Notes under the pieces: generated by a model
Database searches by the model: none
What the model saw: the letters and a program-made list of their open reading frames with translations, nothing else
Told to the model about the DNA's origin: nothing
Made by a program: the position numbers and the translations under genes
Shown: positions 6,281-28,486 of the stretch, one piece after another
Layout of the letters: every line of letters starts with the position of its first letter
Position numbering within the stretch: the stretch's first letter is position 1
Assembly: GCA_003282485.1 (NCBI GenBank)
Contig: QBZD01000001.1
Span: forward strand, 87,514-151,513
Length of the DNA stretch: 64,000 bases
Direction: 5' to 3'
Source: Pelagibacteraceae bacterium AG-333-C14
Lineage (GTDB): Bacteria > Pseudomonadota > Alphaproteobacteria > Pelagibacterales > AG-422-B15

Positions 6281-7227
6281 AATTACTCATAGGGTTTGAC
6301 AATAAAATATATCCTGGGGTTAATGAATTTAAGTCTATTGGTACTTGCAAATTTATTAACTATAATCAACAGTCAATCTTAAAATATATAGCTTCATGTG
6401 ATATATTTGTCCCTCATCTTAGAGAACCAATAGATAACAAAATCCTTAAGTATGCAAAAAAATTAAAAATAATTGCAACTCCCAGCACTGGCAAGGACCA
6501 CATAGATGAAAATGAACTCAATAAAAGAAATATTAAGCTAATTACGCTTTTCGAAGATAGGAAATTTCTTGATAAGATCAGTAGTACTGCTGAGATGAAT
6601 TGGCTATTGATTCTTTCATGTATAAGAAATTTTAGATTTCTAATAGACCGGATTCAAAAAGAAAAAAAGTGGACTAATAGCGATATAAGGGGATATGAAT
6701 TACAGGGTAAAACTATTGGGATAATTGGATTTGGAAGATTGGGAAAAAAAATAGCTAAGTACGCAGAAACGTTTGGCATGAATGTGCTTGTGTATGATAT
6801 AAAAAAAATAAAGCATAAAAAAAAATATTCATTCGTTACTCTAAACAAGTTATTAGAGTCTGCGGATATAATAAGTATGAATGTAAAACTTAATCCGACT
6901 AGTAGGCAAATGATTAGTTTTGAGCAAGTAAATAAAATGAAAAAGGGAGTTATATTTGTAAATACAGCAAGAGGAGATACTGTATCATCCAGGGCCTTAA
7001 TAAAAGGCCTTAATAGTGGAAAAATAGAATCAATTGGAATTGATGTTTGTAATAATGAGTACTCATCATCTTATCTGCCGAATGATCCTTTGATAACAAA
7101 ATCGTTTACAGATAAGAGAATAATAGTTACACCCCATGCTGGAGGAGCAACTCATGATGCTCATAATCAAGTATTTAAAAAATTGTCTGATTTAATAAAA
7201 ATAAATATTTCCAATAATAAAATATGA
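6277..7227 (+). CDS. D-isomer-specific 2-hydroxyacid dehydrogenase family protein
   Basis: A 316-residue NAD-dependent dehydrogenase of the SerA/D-lactate dehydrogenase superfamily. The nucleotide-binding fold is marked by GIIGFGRLGKKIA (about 146-158). The substrate Arg lies in NTARGDT (about 229) and the catalytic His in VTPHAGGAT near the C-terminus. There is no C-terminal ACT domain, so it is not a standard phosphoglycerate dehydrogenase. It is locked between neuA and neuC with four-base overlaps on both sides, which strongly suggests a role in making or modifying the nonulosonic acid or a derived acyl group. The substrate is unknown; reduction of a 2-keto acid such as the open-chain ulosonate is only a guess. 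Confidence 0.8.
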   Translation: MKLLIGFDNKIYPGVNEFKSIGTCKFINYNQQSILKYIASCDIFVPHLREPIDNKILKYAKKLKIIATPSTGKDHIDENELNKRNIKLITLFEDRKFLDKISSTAEMNWLLILSCIRNFRFLIDRIQKEKKWTNSDIRGYELQGKTIGIIGFGRLGKKIAKYAETFGMNVLVYDIKKIKHKKKYSFVTLNKLLESADIISMNVKLNPTSRQMISFEQVNKMKKGVIFVNTARGDTVSSRALIKGLNSGKIESIGIDVCNNEYSSSYLPNDPLITKSFTDKRIIVTPHAGGATHDAHNQVFKKLSDLIKINISNNKI

Positions 7228-8396
7228 AAAAAGTATCAATTTATATAGGAAGTCGTGCAAATTTTAGTAGTGCAATTTCAATATTAAAATCTATAAAAAA
7301 CTCAAGAAAACTCAAGCTTTCAATAGTTATAGGTGGTGCTGGAGTGATTCCTAGGTATGGGGATATTAGAAAGCTATTGGATCAACAAGGCTTTAAGAAG
7401 TACTTTGTTGCCAATACTCTAGTTGAGGGAGAAACACCAATCACAATGTCAAAGTCCGTAGGTCTAGGCATAACAGAGTTTTCATCAATTTTAGATTTAA
7501 TCAAACCAGATTACGTAATTGCTATTGGAGATAGATTTGATGTACTGCCATGGGTTATTAGTGCTGCAATGATGAATATCTGTGTTGCTCACACAATGGG
7601 GGGTGAAAGGTCGGGTACAATTGATGAAAGCATAAGACACTCAATAACAAAATTTTCAAATATACATTTTCCAGCTAATAATGATGCTAAAAATAGAATC
7701 TTAAAAATGGGCGAGAATAAAAAAGATGTTCATGCAGTCGGTTGTCCAAGAATAGATTATGTACTGGATACACTAGCTGGAATTAAAAAAGGAAATTTTA
7801 TTAGTTCTAAATCTTTATTTAAGACATATAGGGGAACAGGTCCTATTTTCTCTCTTGAAAAATCAAAATTTTTATTAGTTTTATTTCATCCAGTTACAAC
7901 AGAATATGGCTCAAATAAAAAACATATTGATGCAATACTTTCAGCGTTGAATATAATGAAAATGAATACAATTCTAATCTGGCCAAATGCTGATGCTGGA
8001 TCAGATGAGATTTCAAAGGGTATAAGAATTTTTAGAGAAAAATATAACCCAAGCTGGTTACATCTTTTCATTAATTTACCATTAAAAATTTATGTTCAAC
8101 TGATGTATCAATGTTCTTGTTTAATTGGTAATTCAAGTAGCGCAATTAGAGAAGGAGAAGTAATTGGCGTTCCATCGGTCAATATTGGAACAAGACAAAA
8201 TATGAGATTAATGGGAAACAACATTTTGAATTGTAAACCACAAAAAAATGCAGTTTTAGATGCAGTAAATACTCAAATCAAAGTTGGAAAATTTAAAACA
8301 AAGAATTTATATGGTAAAGGTAATGCAGGGAAGAAAATCGCATCTATTTTAGAAAAGCATAAACCTGGTAGTACGCAAAAAATTATAACTTACTAG
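7224..8396 (+). CDS. neuC: UDP-N-acetylglucosamine 2-epimerase (hydrolysing), NeuC/LegG type
   Basis: A 390-residue GT-B-fold epimerase of the hydrolysing UDP-GlcNAc 2-epimerase family, which releases ManNAc-type sugars for NeuB. Supporting segments are YIGSRANFSSA at the N-terminus, IAIGDRFDVLPWV (about 100-112), AHTMGGERSGTIDESIRH (about 122-139), GCPRIDYVL and, near the C-terminus, CLIGNSSSAIREGE (about 299), the UDP-phosphate binding loop. It starts four bases inside the preceding dehydrogenase gene and ends one base before the convergent tviB-like gene. Together with neuB and neuA it completes the core three-step path to a CMP-activated nonulosonate. Whether it uses UDP-GlcNAc or a diamino-sugar (LegG) is not resolved. 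Confidence 0.88.
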   Translation: MKKVSIYIGSRANFSSAISILKSIKNSRKLKLSIVIGGAGVIPRYGDIRKLLDQQGFKKYFVANTLVEGETPITMSKSVGLGITEFSSILDLIKPDYVIAIGDRFDVLPWVISAAMMNICVAHTMGGERSGTIDESIRHSITKFSNIHFPANNDAKNRILKMGENKKDVHAVGCPRIDYVLDTLAGIKKGNFISSKSLFKTYRGTGPIFSLEKSKFLLVLFHPVTTEYGSNKKHIDAILSALNIMKMNTILIWPNADAGSDEISKGIRIFREKYNPSWLHLFINLPLKIYVQLMYQCSCLIGNSSSAIREGEVIGVPSVNIGTRQNMRLMGNNILNCKPQKNAVLDAVNTQIKVGKFKTKNLYGKGNAGKKIASILEKHKPGSTQKIITY

Positions 8397-13561: not shown

Positions 13562-14806
13562 TTAATCAATATTTATTGTTTTTTTGAATGAAATTGGTGA
13601 TTCATCTTCATTATAAATTATATTACTTACAATATTTAATTTTGAAATTATTTTTTTTAGTTTACTTGGTATTTTTTGTTTAGAGTTTCCAAAAAGTAGA
13701 TTGATATTTTTTTCCGTAGTATTTTTAAATAAATTAGGATTTTTAAATTTTTCTAAAATCTGATAAAAATCAGCCTTTGTGATTTTGATCCATGAACAAA
13801 AGGTTTCAATTTTTTCTGGTGATATCCTTAAGTAAAAGTCATTCAGCTCACTTGCTTCTTTACGACTTATTCTGTTAAATCTTATTTCCTGACATAGGTG
13901 ATCTGTGACTTTTCCATATCCATATTTTATAAATTTAAAAAGGTCATGAACTTCTGAATAAAATATATTATTTGAATCCTCAAATGGAAAAAGTGCTCTA
14001 TTAGAATTTAATGTTCCATATTTATAAGTTTTAATTATTTTTTCCTGCATCTTTCGATTATCCCAGTTTAAATAATTATTTAAATATATTCCCCTCAAAC
14101 CTATTTTTTCTAAATAATCTCTATTTGGATAATTAAATTTTATTAATTCTTTTTTAAGTTTATCTGATACGCTTTTTTTACTCAACAAATCTTCTGGCTC
14201 TAATCCAAATAGATCATGATCTCTTCTATACTGTCTGTTCATTTGAATTCCGTCCATATATGAAAACATGCCAACTTGTTCAATTCCTTGATGCATTCCC
14301 CAAATAATAAGGGGTATTTTAAATTTTACAGCAATCTGCACTGGAAAGACGCTATGACCTGCGAGAGAAAGCCAATGAAAATTCCCATAGTTCTTGAGAG
14401 AATATCTTGCTATTTCTTTGGCTTTTGACTGATTTAAGTTAAATGAGATTAAATCACACCCTAAATCAGTTTGAAGTTTTTGTATATTATATAAACCAGT
14501 TAATGAATTATAATGACTATTGTATGTAACAAATAGAGGTTTCAAACCAAGTTCATTTTTTACATAGTGAGCTGTAAAAAGACTGTCTTTCCCACCAGTT
14601 ACCGGAACAACACAATCGTAATGATTATTATTACTGAATTTAGTTCTATCTATTAAGTTCTCTAAATCTTTTTTTCTATCCTGCCAGTTAATTACTTTTT
14701 TTTCTTTGTGCTGCAAACACCCACTACAGATTCCATCTTCATCAAAAATTATACCTAGAGGATGATTTGATGGATAGAGACATTTTTTACAAAGTTTGAC
14801 GACCAT
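13562..14806 (-). CDS. N-acetyl sugar amidotransferase (WbpG/PseA/WbuX type), copy 1
   Basis: A 414-residue ATP-dependent amidotransferase that converts a sugar N-acetyl group to an acetamidino group using ammonia from a HisH/HisF-type pair. An N-terminal zinc-ribbon-like site has CKKC (about 6-9) and CSGC (about 27-30). The PP-loop ATP site reads VTGGKDSLF (about 68-76), with Thr where Ser is usual. HQGIEQ and a conserved YGYGKVTDHLCQEIR segment (about 298) also match the family. It is one base downstream of the hisF-like gene. A second, divergent family member (16167-17297) lies on the other side of the hisF/hisH pair, so this block has two amidotransferases and one ammonia source. Confidence 0.88.
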   Translation of the reverse strand: MVVKLCKKCLYPSNHPLGIIFDEDGICSGCLQHKEKKVINWQDRKKDLENLIDRTKFSNNNHYDCVVPVTGGKDSLFTAHYVKNELGLKPLFVTYNSHYNSLTGLYNIQKLQTDLGCDLISFNLNQSKAKEIARYSLKNYGNFHWLSLAGHSVFPVQIAVKFKIPLIIWGMHQGIEQVGMFSYMDGIQMNRQYRRDHDLFGLEPEDLLSKKSVSDKLKKELIKFNYPNRDYLEKIGLRGIYLNNYLNWDNRKMQEKIIKTYKYGTLNSNRALFPFEDSNNIFYSEVHDLFKFIKYGYGKVTDHLCQEIRFNRISRKEASELNDFYLRISPEKIETFCSWIKITKADFYQILEKFKNPNLFKNTTEKNINLLFGNSKQKIPSKLKKIISKLNIVSNIIYNEDESPISFKKTINID

Positions 14807-15559
14807 CTATCTTACTAATAAACCTTTATCTTTTATATATTTCTTTAATTTGTATGTAGGCTCCTCATAATGATGTAAATAGTTTCCTACCCCAAAAGCA
14901 GATACATTTGTTTGTCTCAACAAATTGCAGGCATGATCTGGAATGCCTAGGCCACCAACTGCTATTATTGGCTTTTCAGACAGTTCATCTAAGATTTTAA
15001 ATTCTTTAATTGCATAACCATGTTTTGTTCCATCACATAAAATAGATTGAAATAAGAATTCTCCTACTGGCATAGAATTATATTTTTTAATAATGTCTAT
15101 GATTTTAAAATTTTTGTTATTTTTCCTATCTAATAAATATAAATTATGATCTTTATTACTCTTAAAGAAATCTAAAGATAAAATTATTGATTGTGATCCA
15201 TAAAAATAAGAAATTTTTTCAATTAATTCTTTATTCAGTGCAGATTTATTTATAATTAATTTATCTACACCATTACTAATCAATTTTTTTGCAATATTAA
15301 TATTTGAAATTCCTCCTCCTACAGATAAAGGAAGTTTATTTAACTTAGTAATTTTTTTTAATATTTTTGTATTATTATAAAATTTATTTTTTTCATCACT
15401 TATATCTATGATGCTTATTTCATCTGCATCACTCCAATCATTTAAAAATTTTATTGTATTGATTAATGATGCTACTGGTTTAACTATTTTAAATTTTATT
15501 GTTTCTACGACATGACTGTTTTTTACTAATACCATGGCTATCATTCTTCGAGTTACCAT
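14807..15559 (-). CDS. HisF-like glycosyl amidation protein (WbuZ type)
   Basis: A 250-residue TIM barrel related to imidazole glycerol phosphate synthase cyclase HisF. Recognisable segments are SVGGGISNINIAKKL (about 77-91), INKSAL, LSLDFFKS, and IIAVGGLGIPDHACNLL toward the C-terminus. In true HisF the first strand carries a catalytic Asp (in a CLDVKDG context); here that region reads MVLVKNS, so that Asp is missing, while the second catalytic Asp position (LSLDF) is kept. This fits a HisF-derived ammonia conduit for sugar amidation rather than a histidine enzyme. The start overlaps the hisH-like gene by seven bases. Confidence 0.87.
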   Translation of the reverse strand: MVTRRMIAMVLVKNSHVVETIKFKIVKPVASLINTIKFLNDWSDADEISIIDISDEKNKFYNNTKILKKITKLNKLPLSVGGGISNINIAKKLISNGVDKLIINKSALNKELIEKISYFYGSQSIILSLDFFKSNKDHNLYLLDRKNNKNFKIIDIIKKYNSMPVGEFLFQSILCDGTKHGYAIKEFKILDELSEKPIIAVGGLGIPDHACNLLRQTNVSAFGVGNYLHHYEEPTYKLKKYIKDKGLLVR

Positions 15560-16170
15560 TGATTACAAATCCTTGCAAAATTTGATAAAATCTTACTTCC
15601 ATTATCGAGACTACGCTCTGGGTGAAACTGCAAGCCAAATATATTCTTATCTTCTACAATTGAAGAAATTTTTCTTTTATAATGTGTTATTCCTTTTGTA
15701 ATTTCTTCTTTCTGCGGGTGAGAGCTATAAGTATGATTAAAATAGAAATATGAATTATTTGTAATATTTTCAGTAATTAAAGATTTACTTAATTTTACTT
15801 TATTCCAACCAACATGATGCTGATATTTTTTTTTATTTGATATTTTTTTTGTGCTTCCTTCAAGAAGACATAAACATTTAACATCATTGGACTCTTCTGA
15901 GCTCTGAAATAAAACTTGCATACCCAAACATATACCAAGGATAGGCATCTTTTTATTTATAATTTGTTCAAATAAATTATCTTTTGTTTCACCAGAATTA
16001 AAATATTTCATAACTGGATCTATTGAACCTACTCCGGGAAGAATAAGACCTTTGTATGATTTAAAATTATCTTTATTACCTGAAATTATTCTATTCTTTA
16101 CTGATAAAAAATTCAGAATACTCTCTATGGATTTTACATTGCCAGTATTATATTTAATTATTCCTATCAT
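15553..16170 (-). CDS. HisH-like glutamine amidotransferase (WbuY type)
   Basis: A 205-residue class I glutaminase supplying ammonia to the HisF-like partner. The catalytic triad is visible: Cys81 in GICLGMQ, and His183 and Glu185 in LQFHPERS. The N-terminus IGIIKYNTGNVKSI and the LPGVGSIDPVMKYF oxyanion region are typical of HisH. It overlaps both neighbours (four bases with the upstream amidotransferase, seven with the hisF-like gene), so all are probably translated together. Because it sits between two sugar amidotransferases and away from any other his gene, a role in glycan acetamidino formation is far more likely than histidine synthesis. Confidence 0.9.
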   Translation of the reverse strand: MIGIIKYNTGNVKSIESILNFLSVKNRIISGNKDNFKSYKGLILPGVGSIDPVMKYFNSGETKDNLFEQIINKKMPILGICLGMQVLFQSSEESNDVKCLCLLEGSTKKISNKKKYQHHVGWNKVKLSKSLITENITNNSYFYFNHTYSSHPQKEEITKGITHYKRKISSIVEDKNIFGLQFHPERSLDNGSKILSNFARICNQW

Positions 16171-17297
16171 GATTTCATTAAATCAAATGTTCTTCTCCAG
16201 TTCTTACCATTTTTGATCCATAGATTTTTAGATCTATACCTATTTGCAATTAAAAAAAATCTTTTTTTGGTAATGCCTAAGTATTTACAAAAATCGTCAA
16301 TATATTTTGAAGAGCACTCACCATCATTCTTAAAAACAATTTTTTTTGCTTCTTTTCTTGTTAAAATACCTAGTCGTATCATTTCACTCGCCTCTTCAGT
16401 TGCCTTTCCAAAGCCAAATTTAAAATATTTTACCATTTGATTAACTGCTACAAAGTCATCATCAAGAGCATCATAATTTGTAAGAGCTCCTAGCGAGTTT
16501 GGATTTTCTTTTCTTATCCTCAGGCCATTTTTTATTGCAACTCTTGCATTACTATAGTTATTAAAATCTTTAAAATAATATCCTAAATATCTAATGTTTA
16601 TTCCATTCTTAATTAAGTCTTTTTTACTAGGGTACATATAAGGTATCAGATCTTTCTTTTTTATTTTATAATCAGGAATTGTCATCCAAGATATATCCCC
16701 ACTCCCTAACGTATTATAATTTATCATATCAATTGCATTACCTTGATCTTTTGAGCCTTCTTTTTCTCCATAAGCAAGACTATTGTTTTCTCCAAGAAAA
16801 ATCATTTTTATACCGTATGCAATTGCAACCCTAGGAGCTGAAGCATACAAAGTTAGTTCAGTTGATCTTGCATAATTCCCATATTCAATGAAAGAATATT
16901 TCATAAGTTTTTTATAAATAACTGGATCAGGTTCAACGGTTATGATGTCAAAACCTAATTTATTAAGGTTGTTAATATTTTCATATCCAATTTGAGTAGT
17001 CATTTCAGGTGGACTAACCGTGGATACAAGTAAAGGGTTAAGTCTTAATGTATCTCTGCATAATAAAGCTAGTCTAGTACTATCTTTTCCCCCACTAGCC
17101 GAAATAATGCAGTCATAACCAGATGGTGACTTATTTTTTTTACACCAATTTGCAATTTCTTTTATCTTATTTTTTCGATCTTTCCATATATTTGAGTTTA
17201 AACTGTTGAGGTAATTACAAGGAAAGCATATACCTTCTTTATCAAATTTAATGTATGGCCGTGTATTGGGTTGAAGACATTTCTTACAATATTTCAT
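16167..17297 (-). CDS. N-acetyl sugar amidotransferase (WbpG/PseA/WbuX type), copy 2
   Basis: A 376-residue member of the same family as the gene at 13562-14806. Zinc-ribbon-type cysteines are in CKKC (about 4-7) and CFPC (about 24-27). The PP-loop is ISASGGKDSTRLA (about 65-77). A GENNSLAYGEKEGSKDQGN segment replaces the HQGIEQ region of copy 1, and FKFGFGKATEEASEMIRLG (about 288) matches the conserved C-terminal core. The clear differences between the two copies suggest different sugar substrates or positions. It is the first gene of the tightly overlapping amidation block (amidotransferase 2, hisH, hisF, amidotransferase 1), and follows the ACP gene with about 40 bases between. Confidence 0.88.
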   Translation of the reverse strand: MKYCKKCLQPNTRPYIKFDKEGICFPCNYLNSLNSNIWKDRKNKIKEIANWCKKNKSPSGYDCIISASGGKDSTRLALLCRDTLRLNPLLVSTVSPPEMTTQIGYENINNLNKLGFDIITVEPDPVIYKKLMKYSFIEYGNYARSTELTLYASAPRVAIAYGIKMIFLGENNSLAYGEKEGSKDQGNAIDMINYNTLGSGDISWMTIPDYKIKKKDLIPYMYPSKKDLIKNGINIRYLGYYFKDFNNYSNARVAIKNGLRIRKENPNSLGALTNYDALDDDFVAVNQMVKYFKFGFGKATEEASEMIRLGILTRKEAKKIVFKNDGECSSKYIDDFCKYLGITKKRFFLIANRYRSKNLWIKNGKNWRRTFDLMKS

Positions 17298-17337: not shown

Positions 17338-17571
17338 TTACTGTTTACTTTTTATTTTTAATAGATCTATAATATCACTTATCTTAATAATTTTTTCGAC
17401 TTCTTTCGGATTTATTTCAATATCAAATTCATTTTCAATTGCAACCATAAGGTTAATATGATTAAATGAATCCCAGTTTGGAATTTTTTTTAACTGCGTA
17501 CTTAATTGAAAATTTTTTAATTTACAATCAAAAGTTTCTTCCATTATAGATTTTAATCTTTTTTTATTCAT
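17338..17571 (-). CDS. Acyl carrier protein
   Basis: A 77-residue carrier protein. The phosphopantetheine attachment serine is Ser35 in NWDSFNHINL, a DS-motif variant often seen in stand-alone ACPs of FkbH-type systems. Four predicted helices and an acidic second half (VAIENEFDIEINPKEVEKI) match the ACP fold. It overlaps the AAC(3)-like gene upstream by eight bases, and that gene overlaps fkbH, so the three probably act together. By analogy with FkbH-associated ACPs, it would carry a small acyl group (glyceryl in the characterised polyketide cases); the actual group here is unknown. Confidence 0.88.
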   Translation of the reverse strand: MNKKRLKSIMEETFDCKLKNFQLSTQLKKIPNWDSFNHINLMVAIENEFDIEINPKEVEKIIKISDIIDLLKIKSKQ

Positions 17572-18418
17572 TAGTAACGAACTCTGATTTACTCATACTT
17601 TTAATTTCATCTTCTTTGATGTTATTAACCCAATATTTAATTTCTTCAACATTTTTAATATAAGCATATGGGTTATCATATAAAATATCATAGGTTTCAT
17701 TAACATATGATGAAATACTTGTAGCTTCTAAAGATAGTATTGGATTTTCTGAAGATAATATTTTCTTTTTATCTCTTAACCTTTTTTCAATCTGTTTATG
17801 ATCCCAAAGTGGCTCAATATTTTTCGGACGACAGTACATTATTTCCTCACATTCACTTACATAGTGACCTTTTGAGTAGAGTTTTCCTGAAAATCTCTTA
17901 AAATATCTATAAGGAACTCTTAATACTTCCTCTGCATGATGAAGAATTGAACATGATAGATGCCAATCGACTCCTAAGACCATAATTTTTGCTTTATTTT
18001 TAATCAACCACGACATAATGCTTTTATTGCCCCATGATGTCTGTATTTTTAAATTGGAAAGATCATTTTTTAACATACCATAAACTGTATAACTCTGCAT
18101 AGGTTGCGAAGTTCTTTGCATTTCTGGTCTAAGTATTGAACAATCTGATAAGGCGCCAGTGTCACTCTTGGTTAATTTTATATCAAAAATTTTATTCTTA
18201 GAAAATTCCATTGAATAACTTGGTAAGACTAGTGTTCTTTTATTTCCACATACATCTTGGAAAACATCTAGTATCATGTTTGCTGTATATTTTGCATCAG
18301 CCCCAAACTTATGAGCAAAAGATGATATTCCAGAATAAAGAATTATAACTTCATCATCCTCATCAATTAAGCTTAGTACGTTATCAACAAGATCTTGCTC
18401 AGTAAGTTTTGATTTCAT
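17564..18418 (-). CDS. AAC(3)-family acyltransferase, probably acting on an aminosugar
   Basis: A 284-residue member of the aminoglycoside 3-N-acetyltransferase (AAC(3)/YokD) fold. Family marks are ILYSGISSF near the N-terminus, TLVLPSYS (about 72), SDTGALSD, the RTSQPMQSY segment, and the catalytic-region motif SILHHAEEVLRVPYR (about 158-172). Context argues against antibiotic resistance: it overlaps fkbH by 20 bases and the ACP gene by eight, inside a glycan cluster. The likely role is transfer of the ACP-bound acyl group to an amine of a sugar. AAC(3)-fold enzymes are known mostly as acetyl-CoA users, so use of an ACP donor is inferred from gene order alone. Confidence 0.8.
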   Translation of the reverse strand: MKSKLTEQDLVDNVLSLIDEDDEVIILYSGISSFAHKFGADAKYTANMILDVFQDVCGNKRTLVLPSYSMEFSKNKIFDIKLTKSDTGALSDCSILRPEMQRTSQPMQSYTVYGMLKNDLSNLKIQTSWGNKSIMSWLIKNKAKIMVLGVDWHLSCSILHHAEEVLRVPYRYFKRFSGKLYSKGHYVSECEEIMYCRPKNIEPLWDHKQIEKRLRDKKKILSSENPILSLEATSISSYVNETYDILYDNPYAYIKNVEEIKYWVNNIKEDEIKSMSKSEFVTNE

Positions 18419-20120
18419 TAATTTGAATCTGCGTTTTAAATTTTTTAATATTTTTTCTATCTAAACTTAGAATATTTTTATTTTCTTTGAATGAAAAATT
18501 CTTAATTGTCTCTTGTAAATATTTATTTTTTTTTGTTTTTTTAAAATTAACTTCAATTTTATCAATTTTTTTCTTTTTAACCCAATCAGATAAATGATTA
18601 AATGCAGCTTCCTCAACCCCTCTGCCAAACACCCTACATGACATCACCCAATCTTGAATAACTAGAGAGCTCTTTGAGACACTTGCAATAATAACATAAA
18701 TAATACCTGACTCACCAAACTTATCTCTGAGATTACCACAAAATAGGTAATGATTATTTTTATTCAATAAGCTTAGAATGTCTGACCTCTTTGTTCTATT
18801 GTATGTAAAATTAAATTGGTTAGTTTTTTCAATTAATGAGTTTACCCTTTGTAAATTATTTTTAGAAATAGGAATAATATCTAATTTCATACTCAGTGAA
18901 TTTAAGTAATTATTTATATCAGTAAACTTATCTTTGCTTTTACTTCTTTTGATGTCTTGTCTGAACATTTTTACTCTTTTCTTATCCTCATGATTTGATT
19001 TCGTTATGTTAAAAAGGCCTGTTGATATTATAGATGGGACTCTTTTTTCAGCATCTTCATCAATATCAAGAACTATCATTTCGGGTATCAATTTTTTCAT
19101 TTGTTCTCTCTCAAATACAGAGTCATCTATGAAGCAGATATTTTCTAAGCTGATATTTAATTGATTAGCAATTTTTTTTATCGCTAAATGCTTTGGTTCC
19201 CAAGATATGTGCATTCCTAATATATCTTTACACTTCAGAATCATCTCTTTTCTTTTTCTAAATGCATTATTTACAGGTTCAAAATTATTTTTTGATACGG
19301 CAAATAAGGGTATTCCTAATTGGGATTGATCTTTAAGAAATCTTTGCATTTCAAGAAATGCTCTACCTAAACCATTTGGGTCTAATTCAATATTTTCATA
19401 GCCTAAATCTCCTATTATTCCACCCCAGATCGTATCATCCAAATCAAAAGCAATTGCTTTCACTTCATTCTTAATTGCAATTGAAATTATATTGCTAATC
19501 TCTATACCTACTCTATTAACTGAATCTGGATGACATGGAATTTTTGCTGTTGTCCAATATCTGGGGGCAAACCAGTTCAAATTATTTTTACTATTAATAA
19601 CATTTTCAGGTGAAAAAATGATTGCCTCTTTTGATACATCTTTAACAATTTTTGAGACTATATTTTTTCTCCATCTAACAAATGGTGAGTATGGATTATT
19701 TTCTGCACTTAATGTCTCAGGCAAAATTACTAAAACATTTTGACCATTATTTATAATGTTGTTTATGGCATTAATAGTATATTTATGATCAAATTTCTTT
19801 CTATATATTCCTCCTTCAGTGATTCCCATTGAAGATAACCATATTATCCACCAGTCTGTTGGTGTTTTTGATTTAAAAGCTTCTGATTGCCAGTTATTAT
19901 ATTGAAGAGATTCAACTTGAATTTTTTTTTTCTGCAAACCAAAAAATAAATTCAAAGCAGGTTTGATAAAATCAATGTTGCAGTTGCCGCCAACTTTAAT
20001 TCTGAGCGATATATTATTTATTTTTTCTTTAGTAAGAGTTTTCTCTACAAGCTTTTGCCTCACAACTGTATCTTTATAAGATAAAAATCTTAGCTCACTA
20101 AAGACATCTATTTTTTTCAT
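18399..20120 (-). CDS. FkbH-like HAD-family protein
   Basis: A 573-residue protein of the FkbH family. Residues ~1-200 form an N-terminal region containing a GxGGNCNID stretch, found in FkbH-like proteins. The HAD domain starts at AFDLDDTIWGG (about 224-234), with the KNN motif in AVSKNNFEPV and FIDDSVFERE as motif III. The C-terminal ~190 residues (NQFNFTYNRT, QDWVMSCRVFGRGVEEA) form the GNAT-like domain of the family. Characterised FkbH proteins dephosphorylate 1,3-bisphosphoglycerate and load the glyceryl group on an ACP. The ACP gene two genes downstream fits this. Here it is likely the loader for an acyl decoration of a sugar, not for a polyketide, since no ketosynthase is present. Confidence 0.88.
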   Translation of the reverse strand: MKKIDVFSELRFLSYKDTVVRQKLVEKTLTKEKINNISLRIKVGGNCNIDFIKPALNLFFGLQKKKIQVESLQYNNWQSEAFKSKTPTDWWIIWLSSMGITEGGIYRKKFDHKYTINAINNIINNGQNVLVILPETLSAENNPYSPFVRWRKNIVSKIVKDVSKEAIIFSPENVINSKNNLNWFAPRYWTTAKIPCHPDSVNRVGIEISNIISIAIKNEVKAIAFDLDDTIWGGIIGDLGYENIELDPNGLGRAFLEMQRFLKDQSQLGIPLFAVSKNNFEPVNNAFRKRKEMILKCKDILGMHISWEPKHLAIKKIANQLNISLENICFIDDSVFEREQMKKLIPEMIVLDIDEDAEKRVPSIISTGLFNITKSNHEDKKRVKMFRQDIKRSKSKDKFTDINNYLNSLSMKLDIIPISKNNLQRVNSLIEKTNQFNFTYNRTKRSDILSLLNKNNHYLFCGNLRDKFGESGIIYVIIASVSKSSLVIQDWVMSCRVFGRGVEEAAFNHLSDWVKKKKIDKIEVNFKKTKKNKYLQETIKNFSFKENKNILSLDRKNIKKFKTQIQINEIKTY

Positions 20121-20212
20121 ATGGCATTAAATCTTAGTCTTAAATATTAATTATTAATACTATTATAAATAGTTTTATAGATTTATACAAAAATTCAATA
20201 TAAATATTACTT

Positions 20213-21019
20213 ATGATTGAAATCATTTGTGATGAAGATAATTTTTTTTCCTTTCAAAGGCGTAATGTTTTAAGTAAGTTAAACGCTAGGCAATTAAAAG
20301 TTTATAATCAGATTAATAAGTATCTCGAAGAGTACCTGAAATTTTATGATATTAGGCCCAAAAAAGTAATCAGCCTATACAAGAATTTCTTAAAATCTTA
20401 CTCATCAGACTGTAAAAAATTTATTGAAACTAATTGTTATCCTGTACAATTAATAGATGAAATTAATACATTAGATAGAATAGAGTATGATGTTACTTTA
20501 ATTATTTCTTGCTTATTATCATTTCATAGATTCACAATTATCGATGAAATAACTAATCATAAATATATCTCTGAATCGTCACTATTTATTGGTATAGGTC
20601 CAGGACTAGAAATTTTTTTATTAAAAGATAGATTTGAAAAGTTCGAAGCATACGACACAGAAATAAGTAATTTCATAAAAAATAAATTTAATAAAAATAT
20701 CTATGAAAAAAAATTTTCCTATAAGAAAAAATTATACAAAAATATATTTGCAATTGAAATAATAGAACATCTTGAAAAGCCATATGAATTACTTAGTGAA
20801 TTATTTAATTCATTGGATAAAGATGGCATAATTACATTAACAACAGCAAAAAATATTCCTCAATTTGACCATTTATATAATTTTGAAAATGAGAATGATT
20901 TTTTACAAAATATTGAAAAAATTGGATTAAAAGTGGTATATAAAAAAATTATTGATCATCAAAGCTTAGTAAAAGAATTAAATGCCAATAATGTATTTTA
21001 TAGATTAAAAAAAATATAA
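20213..21019 (+). CDS. Class I SAM-dependent methyltransferase-like protein
   Basis: A 268-residue protein. The second half has a class I methyltransferase layout: SLFIGIGPGLEIFLL (about 122-136) as the SAM loop, EAYDTE as the acidic strand-2 end, AIEIIEHLEKPYELL (about 180) as motif post-II, and DGIITLTT. The first ~115 residues are an extra helical domain I cannot assign. The GIGPG loop deviates from the usual GxGxG, so catalytic competence is not certain. It heads a plus-strand run and is divergent from fkbH with 92 bases between; the next gene starts two bases after its stop. The substrate is unknown; a sugar or an acyl intermediate are both possible. Confidence 0.68.
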   Translation: MIEIICDEDNFFSFQRRNVLSKLNARQLKVYNQINKYLEEYLKFYDIRPKKVISLYKNFLKSYSSDCKKFIETNCYPVQLIDEINTLDRIEYDVTLIISCLLSFHRFTIIDEITNHKYISESSLFIGIGPGLEIFLLKDRFEKFEAYDTEISNFIKNKFNKNIYEKKFSYKKKLYKNIFAIEIIEHLEKPYELLSELFNSLDKDGIITLTTAKNIPQFDHLYNFENENDFLQNIEKIGLKVVYKKIIDHQSLVKELNANNVFYRLKKI

Positions 21020-21020
21020 A

Positions 21021-22076
21021 ATGAATAAAGTAAGTAAAATAGAAAAAAGATTTATTTTAGCACCTATGACAAGGTGTATATCAAAAATAAATGGGTGTCC
21101 CTCAAAGCAATTAGGAAAATTTTATGTAGATCAAGTTAAAAATGGGTTAACTACTATAATTACGGAGTCATGTGCGGTTAATGGAGAAGATGCCAGAGGA
21201 TATCTAAATGGAAGTCAATTTTTCAATGACCAACACGCAAAATCATGGGCTCCAATCATTAACCAAGTACATAAGCATGGGGGAAAGATTTTTATACAAT
21301 TATTCCATTCCGGTCGTTTAACGGTAAAGAAAATTACAAATTGTAATCCTATTTCTGCATCTGCATTAGAGCCTAGTGAGGTGCCCTCATTCTGGAGGCC
21401 ATTATTTGATCAAAAAATAGTTCATTTTCAAACCATGACTAAATTTGAAAAACCAAAAAAAGTGTCCTTAGGAAAAATAAGAAAAATAATAAATCAATTT
21501 AGAAGATCTAGTGAACTTGCAAAAAATGTAGGTTTTGATGGTGTAGAAATTCATGGCGCTCATGGCTACCTAGTTCATTCATTTTCTACTTTTGATGCAA
21601 ATCAGAGAAAAGATATTTACAATTCTAAAAGTAATCTTTTTTCTAGTGAATTAATTGAGGAATGTAAAAGTGTTTTGGGTAAAACACTATTAAGCTACCG
21701 TATCTCGTTACATACGGTTGACAATCCTTATGCAAAATATTCTAAAGATATTTATAATATACCTTCATTAATTAAAGCCTTAGACAAGGCAGGAGTAGAT
21801 ATCTTTCATTGCTCAGAAGTAAAAGCAGGAGAAAATATGTTTGGCTCAAATGAGTCACTCTTAGAATTAGTAAGAAAAAATACGAAGAAAAAAATAATTA
21901 CTTGTGGGGGAATTGACACACTTGAAAAAATAAAAAGACTTGACAAAAAAGGTGCTGATTATTTTGCTTTTGGAAGATCAGCTTTATCAAATCGAGACCT
22001 AGTGAAAAAAATAATATCTAAGAAAAGACTGATCAAATTTGAATATGAAAAACACTTTTATGAAACAAGAAATTAA
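21021..22076 (+). CDS. Old Yellow Enzyme family NADH:flavin oxidoreductase
   Basis: A 351-residue FMN-dependent TIM barrel. Family marks are ILAPMTRC (about 13-20), TESCAVNGEDARGY (about 50), IFIQLFHSGR (about 89-98), the active-site VEIHGAHGYLVHSF (about 178-191), and the phosphate-binding CGGIDT and FAFGRSALSNRDLV near the C-terminus. OYE enzymes reduce activated C=C bonds. A single-domain protein of this size is the classical ene-reductase, not the longer 2,4-dienoyl-CoA reductase. It is followed, with a 38-base overlap, by a MaoC hydratase; a reductase and hydratase side by side point to handling of an alpha,beta-unsaturated acyl or sugar intermediate. Confidence 0.87.
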   Translation: MNKVSKIEKRFILAPMTRCISKINGCPSKQLGKFYVDQVKNGLTTIITESCAVNGEDARGYLNGSQFFNDQHAKSWAPIINQVHKHGGKIFIQLFHSGRLTVKKITNCNPISASALEPSEVPSFWRPLFDQKIVHFQTMTKFEKPKKVSLGKIRKIINQFRRSSELAKNVGFDGVEIHGAHGYLVHSFSTFDANQRKDIYNSKSNLFSSELIEECKSVLGKTLLSYRISLHTVDNPYAKYSKDIYNIPSLIKALDKAGVDIFHCSEVKAGENMFGSNESLLELVRKNTKKKIITCGGIDTLEKIKRLDKKGADYFAFGRSALSNRDLVKKIISKKRLIKFEYEKHFYETRN

Positions 22077-22461
22077 GAAAAATAACGTAGAAAAAAACTT
22101 TAGAATAACTAAAGAACATGTAGCTAAATTTAACAGCATAACAAGAGATAGTCACCCACTGCATAAGGAATTAACCTTTTCTAAATCTAAAAACTTCTCC
22201 AATATCGTTATAAATGGAATGTTTATTTCATCATTATGCATTGGATTAATAATGAATAAAATGTTTAGTAAAAACTTCATTCTTGCATCTCAAAAATTTA
22301 GCTATCATAAACCTATACTTATTAATACAAATTTTAAGATATCAGCTAGGATATTAAATTTTTATACACGACATAAATTTTGTGAAGTCGAGGTCAAGGT
22401 ATATTGTAATAAAATAGTTTATTGTTCTGGCAATATAAAAATATCATATTTGAAAAACTAA
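22039..22461 (+). CDS. MaoC-like (R)-enoyl hydratase/dehydratase
   Basis: A 140-residue hot-dog-fold protein of the MaoC family. The hydratase signature is ITRDSHPLHKE (about 36-46), with the Asp and His that hydrate or dehydrate 3-hydroxyacyl thioesters in place (the Asn of the usual DxNPxH is His here). VINGMFISSLCIGLI and SYHKPILINTNFKISARI match the following helix and strands. The ATG at 22039 lies inside the previous gene; ATGs at 22045 and 22060 are also possible starts. Such proteins act on CoA or ACP thioesters, so a partner ACP (17.4 kb, same cluster) is a reasonable but unproven donor. Confidence 0.82.
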   Translation: MNMKNTFMKQEIKKNNVEKNFRITKEHVAKFNSITRDSHPLHKELTFSKSKNFSNIVINGMFISSLCIGLIMNKMFSKNFILASQKFSYHKPILINTNFKISARILNFYTRHKFCEVEVKVYCNKIVYCSGNIKISYLKN

Positions 22462-22524
22462 AAATTTTATTTAATCATAGACCTATATAATATATACATT
22501 ATATAAAAATAATTTAAGAATCGA

Positions 22525-23283
22525 ATGGATATTGAAGTTATAAAAAAATTAAAAAAAGACTATCATGAAAATGGATATACAATCGTTAGAGGCTTAGTAA
22601 GCAAAGCTCATATAAATGATGCAAAAGAAGATTTAAATAAAGAGATAAGTAAGCTAGTCAAAAATAAAAAACTAAGATCCAGAGATATCAATTATACGAA
22701 CGACCAAATAAATTCAATTCATTCTATGAGTGGATGGTCATGGACTAAGAAATTACAAAAAAATAAAAAACTGATAAAAATAGTTTCCCATTTAATAAAA
22801 GGTAAATTAGAAAATTATGGAGCTGAACTTTTCGCAAAACCAGCAAATGTAGGTCTCCCGGCCCCACTTCATCAAGATAATTACTTTTGGTGTCTAAAAA
22901 ATAATGAAGCACTTACTGTATGGATTGCTCTAGATAAAGCGAATGATAAAAATGGAGGAGTTTTTTATTTTCAAAAATCGCATAAACTTGGACTTCTAGA
23001 GCATGTCCAGTCATTCGCCCCAGGGACTTCTCAAAAAATTAAATACCCTGATGGATTAAATATTTTTAAAAAGTATTCACCTTCATTAAATCCAGGGGAT
23101 TGTATTATTCATAATAGCTATGTAGTACATGGTAGCGATAAAAATATCAGCAATAGCCCAAGAGTTGGCTGGACATTAAGATTTAAGGCAAAAGACAATA
23201 AAATTGACCCTATGCGAAAAAAACAATATGAAAAAGAATTAGTATTTCAAATTAAAATGAGAAAAAAAAGTGCCAGGATATGA
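22525..23283 (+). CDS. Phytanoyl-CoA dioxygenase (PhyH) family oxygenase
   Basis: A 252-residue Fe(II)/2-oxoglutarate dioxygenase. The facial triad is visible as HQD in APLHQDNYFW (about 114) and the distal His in YVVHGSDKN (about 197), with a 2-oxoglutarate-binding Arg in SPRVGWTLRF (about 210). The N-terminal YHENGYTIVRGL (about 12-23) is also typical of PhyH proteins. Family members hydroxylate lipids, amino acids, sugars and natural products, so the substrate cannot be named. Its 3' end overlaps the GTG start of the following aminotransferase by 14 bases, which ties it to amino-sugar synthesis. Confidence 0.85.
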   Translation: MDIEVIKKLKKDYHENGYTIVRGLVSKAHINDAKEDLNKEISKLVKNKKLRSRDINYTNDQINSIHSMSGWSWTKKLQKNKKLIKIVSHLIKGKLENYGAELFAKPANVGLPAPLHQDNYFWCLKNNEALTVWIALDKANDKNGGVFYFQKSHKLGLLEHVQSFAPGTSQKIKYPDGLNIFKKYSPSLNPGDCIIHNSYVVHGSDKNISNSPRVGWTLRFKAKDNKIDPMRKKQYEKELVFQIKMRKKSARI

Positions 23284-24439
23284 ACTAATTGGCAAGGAAG
23301 AGCAAAAAGAAATTGACTCTATCTTTAAGAATGGAAATGGCGTGCTATTTCGACACGGTTTTGAGAATATCAGGAATAATTCAAACAAAGTTTTAGAATT
23401 TGAACGTAACTTCGCAAAACTAGTTGGTTCTAAATATGCCCTTGCAGTCACATCAGGTACCGCTGCTTTAAGAGTAGCCTTGGCATCACTAAATATTAAA
23501 AAAGGCGATGAGGTAATTACTCAAGCATTCACATTTGTTGCCACTGTAGAAAGTATTGTTGAGTCAGGAGCTACCCCAGTTTGTACAGAAATTGATAAAA
23601 CATTAAATATGGATCCAGATGATCTCTTAAAGAAAATAAATAAAAAAACTAAAGCGGTTATAGCTGTACATATGCTTGGTGTACCGGCACGTTTAGACAA
23701 AATTAAAAAAATATGCAAAAAACAAAATATCCCTCTTATTGAAGACACTGCATGGGGTTGTGGAGGTTCATACAAAAATAAATTCTTAGGAACCTGGGGG
23801 GAAATTGGAGCATACAGTTTTGATTTTGCAAAGACACTTACAACCGGTGAAGGAGGTATGTTAGTTTTTAAAGATAAAAATACATTTCTAAATGCTAAGG
23901 CCTGGCATGATCATGGACATGAAAATAATCCAAAGTACCCAAGATGGCTTGACACTAGAAGAAGTAGTGGATTTAATTTTCGTATGTCTGAATTACAAGG
24001 AGCAGTAGGAATAGCTCAACTAAAGAAACTTAAGAAGATTATTAAACTACAAAATAGAAATATGGAAAAAATTAAAAGAAAGTTATCCTTAATTAGAAAT
24101 ATAGAATTCCGTGAAATAATTGCAGGATCAAATGAGACAGCTGATGCTCTCATTTTTTTTGTGAAAAATAAGAAAACAGCAATCTTGTGCCGAGAAGAAT
24201 TACTCAAACAAGGAGTTGGAACAAAAATTTTACCTGAAGCCTACACTTGGCATTTCGCAGGTACTTGGAAACATATACCTAGTCTATGGTCTAATTTTAA
24301 AAATAAAATAAATGCTTTCCCTAAATCGATTAGACTATTGGAAGCATCAGTCTCAATTCCAATAAATATTCATATGGAAAACGATATTCCTGAAAAAATC
24401 TATCAAGCAATAAGTAAAGTAATATTAAAAAATAATTAG
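23270..24439 (+). CDS. DegT/DnrJ/EryC1/StrS family sugar aminotransferase
   Basis: A 389-residue PLP-dependent aminotransferase acting on nucleotide-linked keto sugars. The substrate/PLP regions read TSGTAALRVALASL (about 61-74), QAFTFVATVES, IPLIEDTAW (about 154) and YSFDFAKTLTTGEGGML, with Lys188 as the Schiff-base lysine. In the usual EDxAQ motif the Gln is Trp here, a variant worth noting. The start is GTG at 23270, inside the PhyH gene; no ATG fits upstream and the next Met is far into the fold. The next gene (GT2) begins two bases after its stop. The amino-sugar product is unknown. Confidence 0.88.
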   Translation: MPGYELIGKEEQKEIDSIFKNGNGVLFRHGFENIRNNSNKVLEFERNFAKLVGSKYALAVTSGTAALRVALASLNIKKGDEVITQAFTFVATVESIVESGATPVCTEIDKTLNMDPDDLLKKINKKTKAVIAVHMLGVPARLDKIKKICKKQNIPLIEDTAWGCGGSYKNKFLGTWGEIGAYSFDFAKTLTTGEGGMLVFKDKNTFLNAKAWHDHGHENNPKYPRWLDTRRSSGFNFRMSELQGAVGIAQLKKLKKIIKLQNRNMEKIKRKLSLIRNIEFREIIAGSNETADALIFFVKNKKTAILCREELLKQGVGTKILPEAYTWHFAGTWKHIPSLWSNFKNKINAFPKSIRLLEASVSIPINIHMENDIPEKIYQAISKVILKNN

Positions 24440-25085: not shown

Positions 25086-25108
25086 CATTATTGATATATA
25101 AATTAAAA

Positions 25109-26170
25109 ATGAATTCAATAAAACTTGGAAAGAGAGTTATAGATAACAACAGTGAACCCTATATTATTGCTGAAGTTGGGGTTAACCATGAAGGATCTTT
25201 TGAGCAGGCATTAGAGTTAATAAATTTAGCAAAAGAGGGTGGCGCAGATGCTGTAAAATTTCAATCCTATAAAGCAGAAACTTTGGCATCAAAAAATTCT
25301 CCCGCTTATTGGGACACAGAAGAAGAGAAAACTACATCTCAGTTCAATTTGTTTAAAAAATATGACAATTTTAATTTTGATGACTATGAATCACTAGCAA
25401 AACATTGTAAGAAAATAGATATTGATTTTGTTTCTACTCCTTTTGATAAAGAGTCAGTCGAATATTTAGATAAATTAGTTCCGTACTATAAAATTGCTTC
25501 TGCAGATATTAATTGTATTCCATTATTAAGGTTAGTTGGTAATAAAAAGAAGCCTGTTATTATATCAACAGGATGTGCAAGTATAGATGAAATAAAATTA
25601 GCTAAAAAAACATTACAAGATGCTGGAGCGCCTAATGTGATAATTTTACATTGCATACTTAATTACCCAACAAATATAAAAAATGCAAACCTATCAATGA
25701 TTACAGATTTAAAACAAACCTTTACCGAAAATATTATTGGTTATTCAGATCACACTCATCCAGATGAAGGTATGATTACTCTTTCTACTGCTTACTTATT
25801 AGGAGCCGTAATAATTGAGAAACACTTTACAAATAATAAAAAACTTCCAGGAAACGATCATTACCATTCAATGGATATCAATGACTTAAAAATTTTTAGA
25901 AAAAGCTCTAATAAGATTAAACAATTGAAGGGCTCAATTTTCACGAAACAGCCTATCAAGGAGGAGGAGAAATCTAGAACAAACGCCAGAAGAAGTATAT
26001 TTTTAAAAAGTAATTTAAATGCTGGAGATATAATAAAAGAAGAAGATATAACATTTCTTCGACCAGGTTTTGGTATCACAGTTGATAATTGGGATAAAAT
26101 CGTTGGCAAAAAAATAAATTCAGATAGTAAATCAGGATATATGCTAAAATGGTCAGATATTAATGAATAA
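25109..26170 (+). CDS. neuB: Nonulosonic acid synthase (NeuB family), copy 2
   Basis: A second NeuB-type synthase, 353 residues from the ATG at 25109. A TTG at 25091 in the same frame would add six residues with no family match, so the ATG is preferred. The barrel shows YIIAEVGVNHEGSFEQALEL, AVKFQSYKAE, STPFDKESV, YKIASADINCIPLLR, YSDHT, IIEKHFT and PGNDHYHSMD. The SAF domain follows from about residue 285 (RRSIFLKSNLNAGD), ending with the FLRPGFGI motif. It is closer in feel to LegI/PseI-type synthases (PGNDH) than copy 1, which has GPDAWFSLD at that position. The two copies therefore probably make different nonulosonates. Confidence 0.9.
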   Translation: MNSIKLGKRVIDNNSEPYIIAEVGVNHEGSFEQALELINLAKEGGADAVKFQSYKAETLASKNSPAYWDTEEEKTTSQFNLFKKYDNFNFDDYESLAKHCKKIDIDFVSTPFDKESVEYLDKLVPYYKIASADINCIPLLRLVGNKKKPVIISTGCASIDEIKLAKKTLQDAGAPNVIILHCILNYPTNIKNANLSMITDLKQTFTENIIGYSDHTHPDEGMITLSTAYLLGAVIIEKHFTNNKKLPGNDHYHSMDINDLKIFRKSSNKIKQLKGSIFTKQPIKEEEKSRTNARRSIFLKSNLNAGDIIKEEDITFLRPGFGITVDNWDKIVGKKINSDSKSGYMLKWSDINE

Positions 26171-26182: not shown

Positions 26183-28486
26183 ATGATATTACTTGGTACA
26201 GAGGTTGCAGGACCTGCTGCCTATATATCTAGTATTAATTTTGGTAAAATTAAAACTAAATGGGTTTATTCTAATAGACTAAAAAGTTTTTATATTCAAA
26301 AAAATATTTCAGCTATTAAGAAATGGAGGAATTTAAAAAATATTGAATATGTTATTACTGGAACTTGTAAAGAAGGTGGTCTTGATCAGCAAATAATTTT
26401 GTGGGCTAAAAAAAATAACATACCTTCAATAACTTGTGTTGATCATTGGAGTTTATTTTATCTTCGTTTCAGATATAAAAATAAATATTTATTTCCTGAT
26501 AAAATACTTGTTAATGATGAATACGCAAGAACTCTAGCTATAAATGATGGCATTCCTGAAGAAAAAATTCACGTTGCTGGCAATCCCATTTTAGAAAAGT
26601 TGTTTAGTAGAAAAATTCAAGTCACAAAAAATAATAACTTACAGAAATATCATAACTTTCCTAAGAAAAAAGTTTTAGTTTTTGTATCAGAAAATTTATC
26701 TGAGTTTAAAAAAAATACAAAAGAATATAAAGGCTACGACGAGTTTGATGTTTTGAAATTAATAATTAAATTTATGAAAAGTAATTATATTCTTGCTATT
26801 AAACTGCATCCTGAAGAAAATAAAAAAAAATTTCTTAATTATATTAATATAGAAAATACTTTTTTTTTAAGTGATATATCCGTTGAAGAAGTAGCTCGTG
26901 GAGCTGATATAATTATAGGCATGGAGTCATTTTTTCTTATCGAGATGGCAACTCTCAGAAACGACGTCATTAGCTTAAGGCCAAAGAGCAAGCACATTTT
27001 TATTGGGAATATTTTAAATGCCACTATTGCAGCAGATTCTCTAAAATCTCTAAATGAAATTCAGAGAATAAAAGGTAAGAAAAAAGATCATTTTAAAAAT
27101 AATTTCAAAAATTCCTCTGATAAAATAATTAAATTAATTAAAAGTACAGTAAATGACAATAAGCCGAAAAATATTGAAAAAAATGAGGGTAATGAGATGT
27201 TTGCTCTTGCAAAAAAACTTTGGCCACTAAACCGTAGTCTTACTGGTGAAGGTGTTAGAAAAACACTAAAGATAATAAATTCAAAAGTAAAAAATATGAA
27301 ATTAACTGAGGTTAGGTCTGGTACAAAAGCTTTTGATTGGGATGTGCCTAAGGAATGGTATGTGAAAAATGCATATATAATTACCCCTCAAGGAAAAAGA
27401 ATTTGTGATTTCAAAAATAATAATTTACATCTAGTTGGATATAGTACGCCTGTAAATAAAAAACTTACATTGCAGGAACTAAACCTAAATCTACATTCTC
27501 TTGAAAGTCAGCCTAATGCTATTCCTTATGTGACTTCTTATTATAATGAAAACTGGGGATTTTGCTTAACTCACAATGAAAGAAAAGTTCTTACTGATGG
27601 ACTTTACCAAGTCATTATTGATAGTAAGCTTTTCGATGGATCACTAACTTATGGTGAAGTTCTCATAAAAGGTAAAAGTAAGAAAGAAATTTTTTTATCC
27701 ACTTATATTTGCCATCCATCGATGGCAAATAATGAACTTTCAGGTCCTGTTGTAACTACATATCTAATAAAATGGTTAAAAAGTAAGAAAAACCTTAAAT
27801 ACTCTTATAGAATAGTATTTATTCCAGAAACGATTGGTTCAGTTGTTTATTTATCTAGAAATTATAAATCCATGAAAAGAAATATTATTGCGGGCTTCAA
27901 TATTTCGTGTGTTGGGGATGATAGAAGCTATTCCTATCTTCCTTCTCGTAATGGCAATACTTTAAGTGATATAGTTGCCAAGCATGTATTAAAATGGACT
28001 GATAAAGAATATATATCTTACAGTTGGGCAGATAGAGGAAGTGATGAAAGACAATATTGCTCTCCAGGGATAGATCTTCCTATAGCATCAATAATGAGAA
28101 CAAAATACCATGAGTATGAAGAATATCACACTTCACTCGACTCTTTAGGAAGAGTTGTAACAAGTAAAGGCTTGTACGGTGGCTACAATGCACTAAAAAA
28201 AACCATTGAAGCGATTGAAAATAATTGTGTTCCATTAACTAAAATTAATGGCGAACCATATCTTGCAAAAAGAAACCTTTATCCTAAAACAAGTAAGTTT
28301 GAGTTTGAGTATAGAAAAGAAGAATTGCCATCGAATCTAGATGTTATGATGGACCTAATAAGTTTATCTGATGGTAAAAATAATCTAATCACAATTGCAG
28401 AAAAAATTAATGTTCCTATTTGGAACCTATATACCATATTGGATAAATTAGTTTCTAATAATATTATATCATTAAAAAATAATTAG
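26183..28486 (+). CDS. Fusion of glycosyltransferase-like domain with DUF2172/DUF4910 (M28-like) domain
   Basis: A 767-residue multi-domain protein. Residues ~1-330 look like a GT-B or NeuC-like transferase: CVDHWS, the IHVAGNPILEKL linker, AIKLHPEE (about 205) and ADIIIGMESFFLIEMATL (about 241). From ~338, the order ALAKKLWPLNRSLTGEGVR, FDWDVPKEW, an inserted PA-like domain, STYICHPSMANNELSGP (about 507), FIPETIGS, RGSDERQYCSPGIDLPI (about 618) and EEYHTSLDS is that of DUF4910/DUF2172 proteins, an M28-like zinc hydrolase fold. A winged-helix-like tail covers ~720-767. DUF4910 proteins are usually stand-alone at about 430 residues, so this is a fusion. A hydrolase or deacylase step coupled to glycosyl transfer is inferred. 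Confidence 0.75.
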   Translation: MILLGTEVAGPAAYISSINFGKIKTKWVYSNRLKSFYIQKNISAIKKWRNLKNIEYVITGTCKEGGLDQQIILWAKKNNIPSITCVDHWSLFYLRFRYKNKYLFPDKILVNDEYARTLAINDGIPEEKIHVAGNPILEKLFSRKIQVTKNNNLQKYHNFPKKKVLVFVSENLSEFKKNTKEYKGYDEFDVLKLIIKFMKSNYILAIKLHPEENKKKFLNYINIENTFFLSDISVEEVARGADIIIGMESFFLIEMATLRNDVISLRPKSKHIFIGNILNATIAADSLKSLNEIQRIKGKKKDHFKNNFKNSSDKIIKLIKSTVNDNKPKNIEKNEGNEMFALAKKLWPLNRSLTGEGVRKTLKIINSKVKNMKLTEVRSGTKAFDWDVPKEWYVKNAYIITPQGKRICDFKNNNLHLVGYSTPVNKKLTLQELNLNLHSLESQPNAIPYVTSYYNENWGFCLTHNERKVLTDGLYQVIIDSKLFDGSLTYGEVLIKGKSKKEIFLSTYICHPSMANNELSGPVVTTYLIKWLKSKKNLKYSYRIVFIPETIGSVVYLSRNYKSMKRNIIAGFNISCVGDDRSYSYLPSRNGNTLSDIVAKHVLKWTDKEYISYSWADRGSDERQYCSPGIDLPIASIMRTKYHEYEEYHTSLDSLGRVVTSKGLYGGYNALKKTIEAIENNCVPLTKINGEPYLAKRNLYPKTSKFEFEYRKEELPSNLDVMMDLISLSDGKNNLITIAEKINVPIWNLYTILDKLVSNNIISLKNN

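Follow-up and report, generated by a model that had tools for sequence, protein, structure and literature searches.

Gene content of the locus

The window analyzed here, a stretch of 64,000 nt of contig QBZD01000001.1 from Pelagibacteraceae bacterium AG-333-C14, carries at positions 17338 to 23283 a set of seven genes that an initial annotation, made from the sequence alone, had read as a possible system for building a small modified acyl group and handing it to an amino sugar (coordinates are positions in the whole window, position 1 being its first letter). Three of these genes, on the minus strand, encode an FkbH protein, an acyltransferase of the AAC(3) fold (here AAC3) and an acyl carrier protein (ACP); the other four, divergently oriented on the plus strand, encode a putative methyltransferase, an OYE-family ene-reductase, a MaoC-like (de)hydratase and a PhyH-type oxygenase (Table 1). 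All seven open reading frames (ORFs) are present and intact in the ORF calls and every coordinate was reproduced, as were the overlaps of 8 bases between ACP and AAC3 and of 20 bases between AAC3 and FkbH, and the divergent gap of 92 bases between FkbH and the methyltransferase gene (20121-20212). The assigned families were recovered by family scans for AAC3, OYE, MaoC, PhyH, FkbH and ACP, the match of the methyltransferase being weak, and, in line with the initial annotation, no ketosynthase turned up in any ORF read in the window. The 500 bases around the divergent gap showed no sigma-70-like site.

The catalytic motifs are intact and no member of the set looks broken. In FkbH, the HAD aspartates D226 and D228, together with D332, D333 and the SCR cysteine C495, are kept across 36 FkbH proteins. 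In AAC3, H160 and E163 are conserved, a VPYRxxK motif is common to most relatives, and the profile matches the structures of FrbF, AAC(3)-IV and YokD. The protein shares with the aminoglycoside AAC(3) resistance enzymes the PF02522 fold and the conserved His and Glu, but it lies far under the cut-off of the resistance family and sits among sugar biosynthesis genes; the assignment as a resistance enzyme was rejected on score (NF033082, AAC_3, 36.5 bits vs a cut-off of 270). The best relatives of the OYE protein in 289 genomes are only about 30% identical to it, and the listed start of MaoC is a TTG, so that internal ATGs may be the true start.

Both runs continue beyond the set into genes that the initial annotation left out. 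The plus strand run extends past PhyH without real gaps into an aminotransferase, a glycosyltransferase, a NeuB-family gene and a 767-aa DUF2172/DUF4910 protein and, further on, into a Gfo/Idh protein, a second aminotransferase and a nucleotidyltransferase, whereas the minus strand run reaches, 40 bases below ACP, the WbuX/HisH/HisF amidotransferase genes. The resulting glycan island adjoins an rRNA operon at 38441-43282. FkbH is single-copy in the source genome, and a search of 52 other genomes of the same family recovered no FkbH, as expected for a strain-variable island.

Table 1. Genes of the seven-gene set and of the surrounding glycan island, with family evidence.
Feature	Position	Strand	Evidence	Predicted role or remark
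ACP	17338..17571	-	NF002148 42.4 bits (subfamily model, below cut-off 71); phosphopantetheine Ser in WDS site present	
AAC(3)-fold acyltransferase	17564..18418	-	PF02522 73.3 bits, cut-off 25	Proposed ACP-dependent amino-sugar N-acyltransferase
FkbH	18399..20120	-	TIGR01686 261.6 bits, cut-off 146.65	Predicted glyceryl loading from 1,3-bisphosphoglycerate onto ACP
Putative S-adenosylmethionine-dependent methyltransferase	20213..21019	+	Weak: PF13489 24.2 bits, E 3e-5, cut-off 27	Ends 1 base ahead of OYE start
OYE-family flavin ene-reductase	21021..22076	+	PF00724 163.5 bits; PDB matches N-ethylmaleimide/PETN/OPR3 reductases	
MaoC-like (de)hydratase	22039..22461	+	PF01575 42.4 bits; Asp and His of RDSHPLH motif present	140 aa, single domain
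PhyH-type Fe(II)/2-oxoglutarate oxygenase	22525..23283	+	PF05721 86.6 bits; HQD and distal His present	
KdnA-like sugar aminotransferase	23270..24439	+	Best PDB match 5k8b (8-amino-3,8-dideoxy-Kdo transaminase), E 4.6e-76	
NeuB-family nonulosonic acid synthase	25091..26170	+	TIGR03569 317 bits, below cut-off 399.65	
767-aa protein, GT-B-like N-terminal half and Cj1295-like deacylase half	26183..28486	+	DUF4910 322.6, DUF2172 123, HTH_47 49.9 bits; PDB 3k9t (putative peptidase), E 1.8e-100	
WbuX-type N-acetyl sugar amidotransferase	16167..17297	-	TIGR03573 292.9 bits, cut-off 203.2	First gene after ACP
HisH-like, HisF-like, second WbuX	13562..16170	-	Second WbuX TIGR03573 304.3 bits; HisH/HisF-like from ORF reading	

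Recurrence of FkbH, AAC3, ACP and MaoC

FkbH, AAC3, ACP and MaoC are a recurrent unit. Searches with the AAC3 protein in 385 genomes of the class and 399 of the phylum, with neighborhoods of up to 20 kb fetched, returned distant relatives (20-38% identity), several of which lie inside frames of 838-869 codons. In five genomes these frames (838-859 codons) are AAC3-FkbH fusions, commonly with a Cj1295-like gene next door; FkbH did not match the 869-codon frame in G080. With a plasmid of Maritalea myrionectae (pHL2708Y3) and one of Sinorhizobium sp. RAC02, the fusions total seven records, and on both plasmids AAC3-FkbH is followed by a second fusion, of MaoC, a short-chain dehydrogenase/reductase (SDR) and ACP, and then by a Cj1295-like gene. 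The cassette set, with the MaoC and SDR domains confirmed by Pfam in the Maritalea and G529 proteins, is found on these two plasmids and in G328, G479, G529 and G379, and in operon form in G459, where ACP, MaoC-SDR, FkbH and AAC3 form a four-gene operon with 4-base overlaps (L162, 6604-10482). No description of such cassettes was found in the literature searched. They share with the window FkbH, AAC3, ACP, MaoC and, in most, the Cj1295-like gene, but in the window the genes are separate, MaoC does not firmly join the clade of the cassettes and its neighbor is OYE rather than a fused SDR. Judging from the overlap of OYE with MaoC and from the chemistry, OYE may stand in for the SDR.

The association was also evaluated by whole-genome Pfam searches covering 30 FkbH loci in 26 genomes, with the number expected for MaoC calculated from how many MaoC genes each genome has. 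At least 9 of the 30 loci have MaoC no more than 5 kb from FkbH, vs 0.56 expected (P 9e-9), the counts of MaoC and PhyH being lower bounds and the loci not fully independent by descent. The statistic rests on independent Pfam coordinates because the MaoC profile of the locus scan had been seeded with nine loci that were later counted. Several separate MaoC lineages stand beside FkbH (5 changes in the MaoC tree vs 14 in shuffles), and this recurrence in separate lineages, together with the long branch of the window protein, points to repeated functional pairing rather than to one inherited block including the window. MaoC as a partner of FkbH, as initially proposed, is borne out by this enrichment.

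The same is not true of the other two enzymes that had been grouped with it. OYE is found within 10 kb of FkbH at 1 locus vs 0.61 expected, and PhyH near FkbH at no fewer than 1 locus vs 0.78 expected, so that neither is enriched. A conserved seven-gene set was rejected, and the exact set was not seen elsewhere in the loci and genomes examined. The PhyH gene instead overlaps the KdnA-like aminotransferase gene and more likely acts on the sugar itself than on the acyl group; it could replace the iron alcohol dehydrogenase (assigned by reading) that precedes a KdnA-like gene in locus L083.

A tree did not show the window MaoC to descend from the fused cassettes. Its nearest relative there is the MaoC of locus L084 (85/92), weakly placed on a long branch; a cassette profile gives the window protein 63 bits and a control profile 51. 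A search of plasmids with the window MaoC gave two weak Vibrio matches only.

A Cj1295-like gene lies within 10 kb of AAC3 in 15 of the 25 AAC3 loci fetched, and NeuB or CMP-transferase genes within 12 kb in 11 of them; pseudaminic acid loci on Tritonibacter and Agrobacterium plasmids hold AAC3 together with DUF4910, and no FkbH was matched in those stretches. In a contig collection, FkbH relatives occur at four loci labelled Segetibacter, Ignavibacteriae, Saprospirales and Flavobacteriales, with ACP nearby in three and AAC3 detected at none of the four; relatives of AAC3 and OYE were absent from viral contigs. A further AAC3-like gene, cut by a contig end (L088 in G305), stands with a hotdog dehydratase, LuxC-like and LuxE-like genes, an AMP ligase, ACP, PhyH and a radical SAM protein, where perhaps a different acyl group feeds the same kind of transferase.

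A proposed acyl exchange on an amino sugar

The 767-aa protein, overlooked in the initial annotation, conserves H176, D286, E287 and H314 in its Cj1295-like half. With this DUF2172/DUF4910 protein, an AAC(3)-family gene and fkbH, the locus contains three markers of the Campylobacter jejuni type. In C. jejuni, Cj1295 is required for 5-N-(2,3-di-O-methylglyceroyl) pseudaminic acid, for which cleavage of an acetamido bond has been proposed, and it alone has been tied to the group, the hypothesis being that the sugar is first deacetylated and then substituted (PMC3068675). Cj1296/7, beside it, belongs to the AAC(3) family (PMC3025981, PMC5135748), and a strain in which cj1302 (fkbH) is a pseudogene lacks the decoration, although this is not the only gene in which it differs (PMC7099621). 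The system of strain NCTC 11168 (Cj1295, Cj1296/7, Cj1302) shares with the window these three protein kinds and a nonulosonic acid background that includes amidino forms (PMC3068675, PMC3025981, PMC5135748, PMC7099621), and it is a described relative of a set for which no described pathway had been recognized. The window differs in adding MaoC, OYE, PhyH and the KdnA-like aminotransferase, and in the fusion of the Cj1295-like part to a GT-B-like domain. On FkbH and MaoC in a glycan setting, nothing relevant was found in the literature beyond PMC7099621. In Tannerella forsythia, Pse5Am7Gra carries acetimidoyl and N-glyceroyl groups on a nonulosonic acid (PMC6388019), the very pairing that the minus strand run would predict, and the gene for the N-glyceroyl group has been reported as elusive (PMC6120980, PMC6388019).

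The trio is a version of the recurrent cassette and is related to this known decoration, for which most enzymes have yet to be assigned. The locus as a whole is fairly probably an acyl building-and-swapping cassette within a surface-glycan island, whose reactions and their order we infer from the gene content, catalytic motifs, fusions and co-occurrence observed. FkbH, as its family predicts, would transfer a glyceryl group from 1,3-bisphosphoglycerate to ACP; the acyl-ACP may be modified by MaoC and a reductase and, optionally, by O-methylation, the reductase being the SDR fused to MaoC in related cassettes and perhaps OYE in the window. On a nonulosonic-type amino sugar or its precursor, the Cj1295-like M28-type amidase would strip off an N-acetyl group, and the amine thus exposed would receive the ACP-bound acyl group through the AAC(3)-fold enzyme; the WbuX/HisH/HisF proteins of the same minus strand run may convert a different N-acyl group to acetimidoyl. 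In the simplest model, the Cj1295-like half deacylates the sugar, FkbH loads ACP and AAC3 carries out the transfer, drawing on the three protein kinds shared by the window and C. jejuni. In C. jejuni, copies of ACP, methyltransferase and FabH genes presumably also lie near cj1302, which was not used as evidence.

The pairing of MaoC with a reductase suggests dehydration and reduction of the glyceryl group in many loci, and perhaps in the window. In one specific version, which we consider quite unlikely, the methyltransferase would cap O2 of glyceryl-ACP, MaoC would give 2-methoxyacryloyl-ACP, OYE would reduce it to 2-methoxypropanoyl-ACP (O-methyl-lactoyl) and AAC3 would move this group to the amino sugar; the MaoC-SDR relatives would then make lactoyl groups via a pyruvoyl form. 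To our knowledge, no ene-reductase has been described that reduces an enol ether bound to a carrier, nor any AAC(3) enzyme that depends on ACP.

It is somewhat unlikely, though by no means negligible, that only FkbH, ACP, AAC3 and the Cj1295-like protein cooperate to give a plain or O-methylated N-glyceroyl group as in C. jejuni, with the methyltransferase, OYE, MaoC and PhyH serving the plus strand sugar operon and acting on the sugar. Such a division would fit the divergent arrangement that parts the trio from OYE, MaoC and PhyH, the chance-level occurrence of OYE and PhyH near FkbH, the overlap of PhyH with the KdnA-like gene, and locus L083, a single-contig genome in which relatives of the KdnA-like, glycosyltransferase and NeuB genes occur with Cj1295-like and AAC3 genes and with no OYE, MaoC or PhyH. 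The enrichment of MaoC near FkbH and its fusion to SDR and ACP in the cassettes speak against this division, as does L084, where MaoC is fused to a PseH-like acyltransferase within an AAC3/Cj1295-like cluster.

The identity of the acyl donor bears on a further alternative, an improbable one, in which the AAC3-like protein is an ordinary acetyl-CoA-dependent N-acetyltransferase re-acetylating the amine, while FkbH and ACP feed a separate glycerate-derived product. It has family precedent in the nearest structures, and it leaves the seven AAC3-FkbH fusion records and the AAC3/FkbH/MaoC-SDR/ACP operon unaccounted for. These fusions beside a Cj1295-like deacylase strengthen the initial view that a small acyl group is placed on ACP by way of FkbH and handed on by the AAC(3)-fold enzyme; that its donor is ACP and not CoA we infer.

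FkbH and ACP also form glyceryl-ACP in polyketide glycerate-utilization and methoxymalonyl-ACP loci, as in tetromadurin, for which loading of ACP from 1,3-bisphosphoglycerate has been described (PMC7489565). Since a methyltransferase accompanies FkbH and ACP in methoxymalonyl loci (PMC7489565), a secondary-metabolite cluster of the methoxymalonyl or tetronate type was considered, and it is highly improbable. In those loci FabH or dehydrogenases follow, with no AAC3 and no deacylase, whereas among the window ORFs read there is no polyketide synthase and, around FkbH, no FabH or FkbI/FkbK-like gene; the neighbors are sugar aminotransferases, NeuB, NeuC, glycosyltransferases and amidotransferases.

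Several observations weigh against the acyl-swapping cassette proposed here. The AAC(3)-fold enzymes known to us use acetyl-CoA. In the tree, a very long branch leads to the window MaoC, and its grouping with the MaoC-SDR-ACP clade is not firm. The scores of NeuB and the aminotransferases, under the NCBIfam equivalog cut-offs, do not point to one particular acceptor sugar. Furthermore, the G459 operon sits among housekeeping genes (helicase; nusA/infB-like), with no Cj1295-like, NeuB or sugar genes in view, and the cassette need therefore not act on nonulosonic acids everywhere.

The fusions and operons provide candidate genes for the steps of the glyceroyl decoration that lacked them, namely loader, carrier and transferase. 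Should the AAC(3)-fold enzyme prove to accept acyl groups from ACP, a sugar-decorating branch would be added to a family that many genome annotations list as antibiotic resistance.

Neighboring genes of the glycan island

The acceptor is probably not pseudaminic acid. The pseudaminic acid core equivalogs are all below cut-off: PseC at 205 and 247 vs 423.5 bits, PseI at 202 and 263 vs 340.25, and PseF at 114.5 vs 205.7. In L083 (1549-5629), a KdnA-like aminotransferase gene lies near NeuB and CMP-transferase genes, with the iron alcohol dehydrogenase ahead of it, and the position of the KdnA-like gene near such genes suggests an amino-Kdo-like or terminally aminated nonulosonic acid. A second, different NeuB-family gene is located at 3658-4677 and a NeuC gene, above its family cut-off, at 7224-8396; because the island holds two different NeuB-family genes and NeuC, more than one nonulosonic acid may be made.

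The GT-B-like N-terminal domain of the 767-aa protein (about 340 residues) is matched by no Pfam or NCBIfam model; in L093 and L110, relatives of it are encoded as separate proteins adjacent to Gfo/Idh or aminotransferase genes. On the minus strand, two WbuX, one HisH-like and one HisF-like gene lie in a row at 13562-17297; L102 likewise has HisH, HisF and two WbuX genes near FkbH. In G259, a genome of another family in the same order, an FkbH glycan locus (L096) with ACP, ketoacyl-ACP synthase III, MaoC-SDR, ACP and FkbH starts beside rRNA-like sequence and, because the window island also borders an rRNA operon, the rRNA-adjacent site may be a shared variable spot.

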